The position numbers and the translations under genes are program-made. The notes below the pieces were generated by a model. It did no database searches, had not been told where the DNA came from, and worked only from the letters and a program-made list of their open reading frames with translations. From IMG/VR virus record IMGVR_UViG_3300008450_000413, positions 1-25,036 of that record: 25,036 nucleotides of DNA. One strand, written 5' to 3'. Origin of the DNA: a virus. Below, piece after piece: positions 9,771 through 11,682 of this stretch. Each line of letters opens with the position of its first letter. Position 1 is the stretch's first letter.

Positions 9771-9778
9771 AATAAATA
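9771..9778 (+). promoter_or_regulatory. T4-late-like box AATAAATA
   Basis: AATAAATA differs by one base from the T4-type late promoter TATAAATA and lies in the 28-base gap before the ATG at 9795, 16 bases upstream. GAGAGGA at 9780-9786 is the likely ribosome binding site. It shares its TAAATA core with five other gaps in the window. Promoter function is inferred. Confidence 0.35.
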
Positions 9779-10631: not shown

Positions 10632-11105
10632 ATGCTAACCAAAGAACAACTACATCTCAAACTGTCAGAAGTGGCAGAGTTTCGTATGCCCAAACTTTCA
10701 GCCAGTGAAATCAAAATATCTAAACAAAAAGCCAGAGGCAAGGGTCGCCCCACAAAAGAAGAACAGTATCAAGAAGAACACGAAGAAGTGTTTTTGGACC
10801 TCTTTCAAGGCATCAATCCCACTCATGCTCCTGAATTGGTTAAACTACATATCAAACCCATAGACTGTGAAGACTGCGGTGCTCATTGTGAGAATGGTAG
10901 ACAAATGGAAATTAAATTCTACAAAGCCGTGCCCAATCACATTGCACATCGCAGAGATCGTTGTTTGACCTGCAACAAATACAAGGATCCCAACACAGGT
11001 GAGTTTACACTACCACAAGGTCCTGCTTGTCAGGTCTACCTAAATTGGGCAAAGAGTCAATTTTCTCTCAGAAATAAACAGGCTAAAAAAGATCTTGCTA
11101 AATAA
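10632..11105 (+). CDS. Putative zinc-binding protein, 157 aa, unknown
   Basis: The family is not recognised. Cysteines C79-x2-C82, C86 and C111-x2-C114 are spaced as a two-knuckle zinc site (C79, C82, C111 and C114 are the likely ligands). The basic segment HIAHRRDRC stands before the second knuckle, and another Cys is at 133. Residues about 33-45 read ARGKGRPTKEE, an AT-hook-like GRP core, so nucleic-acid binding is plausible. The N-terminus is helical and highly charged, and the C-terminus is Lys-rich. No Shine-Dalgarno precedes the ATG at 10632, which sits 5 bases after a TAAATA box. It starts the accessory island between two terminators. Regulator or nuclease are both possible; neither is shown. 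Confidence 0.6.
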   Translation: MLTKEQLHLKLSEVAEFRMPKLSASEIKISKQKARGKGRPTKEEQYQEEHEEVFLDLFQGINPTHAPELVKLHIKPIDCEDCGAHCENGRQMEIKFYKAVPNHIAHRRDRCLTCNKYKDPNTGEFTLPQGPACQVYLNWAKSQFSLRNKQAKKDLAK

Positions 11106-11205
11106 TTTTAGCAGAGCACTATTCTCCATAATAGATTGTCAGGCTGGCATATAAAAATTGGGTGAAAGTTATTGCCATTACATAACCCAAATTGCTCTGT
11201 TAGAA
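11106..11205 (+). ncRNA. Candidate structured RNA with pseudoknot, unknown class
   Basis: Helices account for most of this non-coding stretch. A closing stem pairs TAGCAGAGCA (11109-11118) with TGCTCTGTTA (11193-11202), 10 bp with one G-U, extendable to 11106/11205. Next is the hairpin CTATT/AATAG (11119-11134). Then TGGCA(t)ATAA (11145-11154) pairs with TTATTGCCA (11069+100, i.e. 11169-11177). Its loop carries TTGGGT (11158-11163), complementary to ACCCAA (11185-11190), which makes an H-type pseudoknot with loops of 3, 5 and 7 bases. An intrinsic terminator follows at once. It could be a 3' UTR element, an attenuator or a small RNA. Pairing is read by eye; no folding or covariation test was possible. 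Confidence 0.45.
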
Positions 11206-11225
11206 GGCCCCTTCCGTGGGGCTTT
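11204..11225 (+). terminator. Intrinsic terminator AAGGCCCC-loop-GGGGCTTT
   Basis: AAGGCCCC (11204-11211) pairs with GGGGCTTT (11218-11225), an 8-bp stem with one G-U and a 6-base loop. The following T tract is interrupted (CGTTTGACTACTTTTT). It separates the zinc-protein gene and the structured stretch from the promoter at 11245. Confidence 0.8.
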
Positions 11226-11244
11226 CGTTTGACTACTTTTTCTA

Positions 11245-11273
11245 TTGACAAGGGGTTATTTAGAGTGTAGACT
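11245..11273 (+). promoter_or_regulatory. Sigma70-like promoter TTGACA-N17-TAGACT
   Basis: A perfect -35 hexamer TTGACA (11245-11250) stands 17 bases before TAGACT (11268-11273, 4 of 6 matches to TATAAT). It lies just after the terminator and about 30 bases before the ATG at 11305. A TAAATA box at 11273-11278 overlaps its end. It probably drives the 11305-12733 gene set. Confidence 0.65.
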
Positions 11274-11304
11274 AAATACATTAGTCAGACAAAGGAGAAA
11301 ACTA

Positions 11305-11682
11305 ATGGCAATCAAACAACCTTATATCGTGCTGGAGCAACGACAAGGGCACAGTCAAAAATACGGCACTGAAATGACTACTATCATTATGGTAGGTGTC
11401 AAGGACCGTAGAGAGTATGTGACTTACATAGACTCACCCAATCGCAATGCTGCCAATTGGCAACACATCACACGCAACACCACACACGGATTCGTTCTAC
11501 GCAATCTCAACACCACTGCAAAGTCTACTAAAAAAGGACAGACAATTATCAATGCTGACAGCCAGCCTATCATTGAATGGGAAACTGACACATTGGATGA
11601 AGTGCTGGTAGATGCACAAAAGTTTTGGGCTGAAGAGGATCGCAAAAAAGACAGCGACAAGTTTGGAGATTTATTTGAATGA
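11305..11682 (+). CDS. Unknown protein, 125 aa, acidic C-terminus
   Basis: ATG at 11305 is chosen because AAAGGAG (11291-11297) precedes it; an in-frame GTG/ATG-type start near 11245 would lie in the promoter. The protein begins MAIKQPYIVLEQRQGHSQKY and has a compact, beta-looking core (MTTIIMVGVKDRREYVTYID), then a helical charged C-terminus ending DSDKFGDLFE. Such an acidic, aromatic tip is seen on phage single-stranded DNA-binding proteins, and the core could be an OB-like fold, but no defining motif is present and this is only a guess. It overlaps the next small gene by 4 bases (ATGA), forming an operon with it. Confidence 0.6.
   Translation: MAIKQPYIVLEQRQGHSQKYGTEMTTIIMVGVKDRREYVTYIDSPNRNAANWQHITRNTTHGFVLRNLNTTAKSTKKGQTIINADSQPIIEWETDTLDEVLVDAQKFWAEEDRKKDSDKFGDLFE

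Follow-up and report, generated by a model that had tools for sequence, protein, structure and literature searches.

A candidate small noncoding RNA gene with a conserved fold in uncultured phages

The locus and the predicted fold

The window, that is, the whole stretch of DNA analysed here, is a virus record of 25,036 bases. As listed in Table 1, it was found that the stretch from 11106 to 11225, between the genes c0 and c10, can fold into a structured RNA which is followed by an intrinsic terminator.

Table 1. Features of the locus and of the larger RNA candidate found in relatives. Positions are those of the window unless a relative (L number) is given.
Feature	Position	Strand	Remark
Gene c0 (157 aa, C-terminal zinc ribbon)	10632-11105	+	Immediately upstream of the RNA in every relative covering the region
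TAAATA, putative promoter element	11099-11104	+	Overlaps the c0 stop codon; predicted +1 at 11110; conserved spacing, hexamer enrichment
Core of the structured RNA gene	11110-11205	+	Kept in relatives
P1 5′ arm, AGCAGAGCA	11110-11118	+	Predicted RNA 5′ end; covariation
P2 hairpin, CUAUU-CUCCAU-AAUAG	11119-11134	+	Hairpin at this place in independent MFE folds of relatives
P3 hairpin, UGUCA-GGC-UGGCA	11137-11149	+	Loop carries GGC; optional in the family
GGY motif	11142-11144	+	Proposed partner of GCC at 11174-11176 (tertiary contact or pseudoknot)
P4, UUGGGU (11158-11163)/ACCCAA (11185-11190) plus GU (11168-11169)/AC (11180-11181)	11158-11190	+	Closes the loop; covariation
Loop, UAUUGCCAUU	11170-11179	+	Invariant core UGCCA; alignment of relatives
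P1 3′ arm, UGCUCUGUU	11193-11201	+	Partner of 11110-11118; covariation
Intrinsic terminator, GAAGGCCCC-UUCCGU-GGGGCUUUC, then GUUUG	11203-11226	+	9-bp stem, 2 nt past P1
Promoter of the next gene, TTGACA-17-TAGACT overlapping TAAATA	11245-11278	+	Separate from the RNA
Gene c10 (125 aa, OB fold, single-strand-binding like)	11305-11682	+	Predicted model
RNA candidate of about 530 nt	L043:6993-7526, L020:5188-5717, L032:886-1415, L065:7138-7665, L090:2737-3268(-), others		

The closing stem, the P2 hairpin, the 6-bp stem UUGGGU/ACCCAA, and the terminator had all been drawn in the initial annotation, and all are present. Two other parts of that drawing did not hold. The RNA start had been placed at 11106 and is now moved to the predicted 11110, 6 nt past TAAATA. 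The 9-bp pseudoknot helix of UGGCAuAUAA with UUAUUGCCA is not conserved; L010 and L013 have UGACA facing UGCCA, while most others have nothing comparable. The arms of P3 read UGUCA/UGACA in L010 and L013 and UGACA/UGUCA in L051. The P2 hairpin recurs in the MFE folds of the relatives with variable letters.

Is the fold more stable than that of shuffled sequences? It depends on the stretch folded. With the terminator included (131 nt), z was -4.2 and none of 200 shuffles was as stable; for the predicted 117-nt transcript, z was -3.2. In contrast, the 96-nt core without the terminator gave z = -1.4, with 19 of 200 shuffles as stable, and a 92-nt core gave z = -1.6. Thus, the shuffling check proposed earlier came out clearly for the terminator-containing stretch, which beat 200 of 200 shuffles, while the core alone is only mildly unusual. 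Since z of the cores averages about -1.5, the MFE of the core was rejected as sufficient proof. The core MFE alone would not prove the RNA; the covariation in relatives does.

Relatives and covariation

Besides the window, 42 IMG/VR contigs carry the RNA; L008, one of them, ends inside it. The relatives were gathered by searches with the two neighbouring proteins, by scanning IMG/VR four times for DNA patterns, and by a profile search based on c0. The pattern scans also gave many chance matches, which could be told apart by P1 arms that fail to extend and by the lack of a following terminator. One copy of the RNA was counted in each of the 14 long contigs. Because the search patterns contained TGCCATT or TGCCA, they bias how invariant the loop appears. 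However, the loci found by protein homology are free of this bias, and all that reach far enough carry the RNA. Two of the relatives, L166 and L180, were found only via c0 and had been missed by the earlier patterns; both carry the RNA with new compensatory changes, and thus the link between the RNA and c0 is no artefact of the RNA patterns. Their loops read UUGCCAUG and GUGCCA, so the invariant core shrinks to UGCCA. Apart from the contigs of L166 and L180, a loosened loop pattern added no members.

The pairs of P1 and P4 were counted by anchor positions in 30 unique RNAs, since the first MAFFT alignments misplaced P4 of the window-type members. In P1, 92% of the pairs are standard, with compensatory changes at several pairs. 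The arms in relatives include AGCAGAG/CUCUGUU, AGCGGGG/CCCCGUU, and AGCAGGC/GCCUGUU; P1 is changed in L013 and reads AGCAGAG/CUCUGCU in L166. In P4, 81% of the pairs are standard and all seven counted pairs vary on both sides. The covariation score of P4 was 0.82, as against 0.12-0.21 when the partner strand was slid. In a smaller alignment analysed with an independent counting tool, double changes occurred in 13 of 25 pairs, compared with 7.8 +/- 1.6 in shuffled controls (0 of 500 as high). A lack of compensatory changes in relatives had been named in the initial annotation as the sign of a spurious fold; such changes were found. The covariation supports a fold on the + strand, as expected for a noncoding RNA gene, and I consider the RNA almost certainly real and conserved.

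The loop closed by the strongly covarying P4 has the consensus UAYUGCCAUU, in which GCC faces the GGY motif. GGY precedes P4 in 29 of the 30 unique RNAs, as against 17.5 expected, a count that is inflated by the relatedness of the RNAs; the thirtieth, L056, has GGY after P4. As judged by eye, a U nearly always precedes GGU, giving one more pair, U-A, with GCCA, while GGC nearly always lacks it. This pattern fits a pairing of GGY with the loop and may be taken as support, not proof. Since GCC is invariant, covariation is unable to prove the GGY-GCC contact, and P2 offers GGU an alternative pairing in some relatives. The conserved motifs may form a loop contact of 3-4 bp, and their pairing is proposed.

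How widely is the RNA distributed? No family in Rfam 15 matched the window or nine relatives at the gathering threshold, and the best sub-threshold matches had E >= 1. One exact pattern run against the bacterial and archaeal genomes (84,980 species) did not find the RNA. The 37 pattern matches in bacterial genomes were judged to be chance, as none had P1 pairing. Isolated and named phages gave no match by DNA, c10, or c0. In short, the small RNA is uncatalogued: no Rfam family, named phage, or bacterial genome was matched, the absence from genomes and named phages being a statement on the collections and searches used. The carriers seem to be an uncultured phage family of about 30 kb, mostly from freshwater, as judged from their named relatives and from the sample origins of some contigs, which I presume, unsystematically, to be freshwater. 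By TerL, DSL-LC06 (52%) is the nearest relative that has a name. This lake phage is metagenome-assembled and was placed with Pelagibacter phages by TerL, and its predicted host is Pseudomonadota (PMC10611076). DSL-LC06 and four pelagiphages gave no convincing CM match.

Transcription signals and possible roles

Between the TAAATA element and P1, nearly all relatives have a gap of 5 nt, and L030 and L042 have one of 4 nt. TAAATA is the most enriched noncoding hexamer (6.0-fold) in 17 sequences, which comprise the window and relatives, while other hexamers beginning with TAAA are far less enriched. On the gene strand, 76 of 107 sites are noncoding; the opposite strand has 16 sites. The window has nine sites on the gene strand, eight of which precede a gene or the RNA, and some sites are away from stop codons. 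The promoter-like sites upstream of genes or the RNA are at 9773, 10621, 11099, 11273, 12731, 13986, 19907, and 23903. The predicted start coincides with the ATG or lies beside it in the genes at 10632 and 12741, suggesting leaderless mRNAs. The site at 11099 has no clear -35. Some downstream promoters also have sigma-70-like -35 and -10 elements. In the relatives, a terminator-like hairpin with different stem letters lies behind P1. Thus, promoter and terminator signals occur at conserved positions, as expected for a noncoding RNA gene as far as signals go. Since TAAATA is followed by a terminator, the RNA looks like its own transcription unit of roughly 117 nt, and on these signals an independent unit is likely. 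In the T4 late promoter TATAAATA, the core is TAAATA and its last A lies about 6 nt before the start. Here, likewise, about 6 nt would separate the last A from the predicted start at the first base of P1. Unlike T4, the phage is roughly 30 kb, and an unsystematic look identified no gp55-like sigma factor.

Is the RNA merely the 3′ end of the c0 transcript? The RNA always lies behind c0, the TAAATA overlaps the c0 stop codon, and there is no clear -35, so the RNA could be such a 3′ end. The fold would then cap the c0 mRNA as a stabiliser or a processed 3′ UTR-derived RNA, and TAAATA would be mostly a stop codon. The role of a 3′ end stabiliser stays a candidate because the transcripts of c0 must read through the RNA to reach the terminator. 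However, a stop codon alone would not call for the nearly fixed 5-nt gap between TAAATA and P1, TAAATA is roughly 6-fold enriched in noncoding DNA and is also present away from stop codons, and a mere stabiliser needs no invariant loop core. I therefore consider this explanation unlikely, although it is the strongest of the alternatives. An attenuator or put-like cis element, in which the fold and the adjacent terminator govern read-through into the downstream gene, would agree with the terminator directly behind P1 in the relatives. This option of the initial annotation is improbable, since P1 and the terminator stem hardly overlap, with no obvious alternative pairing, and the DNA downstream is unrelated in its contents and has a promoter of its own.

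The best explanation, which I hold with about even confidence, is a free-standing phage noncoding RNA gene whose fold would be the active part and whose product is likely bound by a protein. The "new phage small RNA" proposed in the initial annotation is well supported by the fixed-spacing promoter element, the terminator, the covariation, and the single copy per genome. The sequences show the fold, the promoter and terminator signals, the single copy, and the linkage to c0, and I infer the transcription start, stability, timing, partner, and function as follows. A phage-type TAAATA promoter may start the RNA, about 117 nt in length, at the first base of P1, and the intrinsic terminator directly behind P1 may end it. 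As both ends would be tucked in stems, the product should be stable. Within P1 would lie P2, the optional P3, and P4, whose loop would present UGCCA, and the GGY outside P4 could pair with GCC of this loop. Since c0 and several further genes in the window are also preceded by TAAATA, the RNA is probably produced alongside them. The active part is presumably the folded RNA rather than an encoded peptide, and the RNA would most likely bind a protein in a regulatory or scaffold role.

The zinc-ribbon protein c0 is the first candidate partner because its gene is immediately upstream and always present, although as an assignment this is only tentative. The position upstream of the RNA is always held by c0 or by c55, a divergent form of it; the two have an N-terminal motif and the zinc ribbon in common. 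Pfam, PHROG, PADLOC, PDB profile, and fold searches with c0 found only a zinc ribbon, with no RNA-binding family; its model has a confident C-terminal zinc-ribbon region and matched nothing in the PDB. The distances of the RNA and c0 were correlated when those of c1, the next gene upstream, were held constant (partial r 0.36; 0 of 2000 permutations), while the value for the RNA and c1 with c0 held constant was -0.12. This correlation may be due to plain physical linkage. L051 has a window-type RNA beside a c0 of the other type.

The initial annotation had also raised a type III antitoxin for the 125-residue product of c10. The antitoxin RNAs ToxI, CptI, and TenpI are pseudoknots in tandem repeats of about 34-36 nt, with a ToxN-fold toxin cotranscribed downstream. 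The locus resembles them in having a pseudoknot-like RNA and a terminator upstream of a small gene. Unlike them, it has no tandem repeat at 10900-11400 and a single unit in all relatives. There is no toxin-like partner either. The c10 model is an OB fold, not ToxN, with RPA/SSB-like matches at best and an acidic DLFE tail, and c10 is therefore probably a single-strand-binding protein, as judged from the model. No PADLOC, Pfam, or PHROG match was found for c10, which has its own promoter, and in the relatives its position is held by other genes or by a second RNA. The type III reading is thus unsupported and extremely improbable.

Another possibility is an antisense regulator, whose loop AUUGCCAUU would pair with the start-codon region AAUGGCAAU (11304-11312) of the next transcript and control its translation. 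When its closing A is counted in, the loop matches a 10-nt stretch, UAAUGGCAAU (11303-11312), with perfect complementarity. Among the relatives that have a gene at this place, most also begin this unrelated gene with AATGGCA, and the others have UGGCAA at a comparable position. However, TGGCA words are about 5-fold enriched on both genome strands, and against this genomic background the match has p = 0.06 in the window and around 0.3 in most relatives. The variable loop letters show no covariation with the target. Because the loop match is not clearly better than the TGGCA background, the antisense reading is a minor rival and quite unlikely, if slightly less so than attenuation.

Among known phage RNAs, the phi29-type pRNA is compact, about 120 nt in length, makes loop contacts, and goes with the packaging ATPase gp16. 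The small RNA is likewise a compact phage RNA with a proposed loop contact. Unlike in phi29, the terminase is of the TerL type (PHROG 2/Terminase_6N), not gp16, and the RNA gene is far from the terminase genes. GOLLD and ROOL, both of which are in Rfam release 15, have a link to phages. Like them, the small RNA is structured and noncoding and was found by comparative analysis, while it differs in its length of about 117 nt and in its fold. GOLLD and ROOL are large structured noncoding RNAs of environmental bacteria, several hundred nt in length (PMC12286853). Their models gave no gathering-level match in the window and nine relatives. The leader of the next gene has a weak match (18.4 bits) to the Rfam family freshwater-2 (RF02980), which is far under the gathering score of 49.9 (E = 1.1) and lies in a stretch other than the small RNA.

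Larger noncoding stretches nearby

About half of the group carries a second candidate noncoding RNA, about 530 nt in length, directly downstream of the small RNA (Table 1). It has its own TAAATA and its own terminator (GATGTCT..AGACATC). The longest ATG frame is 5-26 aa in most members, and the mean column identity among eight phages is 79%. It has no Rfam match, and one member that was folded has an ordinary MFE (z = -1.1). It is possibly a more striking find than the small RNA. On a more speculative reading, which I regard as doubtful, the small RNA is a new class in which a pseudoknot and the co-inherited c0 form a dedicated ribonucleoprotein of the late programme and, with the RNA of about 530 nt in about half of the group, one RNA-based module.

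Strongly conserved noncoding RNAs that seem to be transcribed on their own are rarely kept by small phages, and the function is known for few families of this kind. Since the consensus of the small RNA is clean, its gene partner fixed, its promoter class putatively defined, and its set of relatives clear, its partner, timing, and function are testable. The family also marks the TAAATA promoter signature and, in the same phages, the large RNA candidate of about 530 nt.

Long noncoding stretches were also found in DSL-LC06 (L146:573-1290) and downstream of the small RNA in L028, and a GGGTTAAAACACGACCC-like motif is common to both. They are possibly another large RNA of DSL-LC06-like phages. At L146:1641-1716 of DSL-LC06, TAAATA is followed by a structured stretch (z -3.0), which is closed by the stem AGGGCGUU/AACGCCCU and has a GGGUUU/AAACCC stem further in. 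This stretch is a possible functional counterpart of the small RNA and not necessarily a homologue. As a separate observation, TTGGCAA/TTGCCAA and related TGGCA words occur about 5-fold more often than expected from base composition on both strands of the 17 sequences, for which codon use and/or a DNA-binding site are possible reasons.
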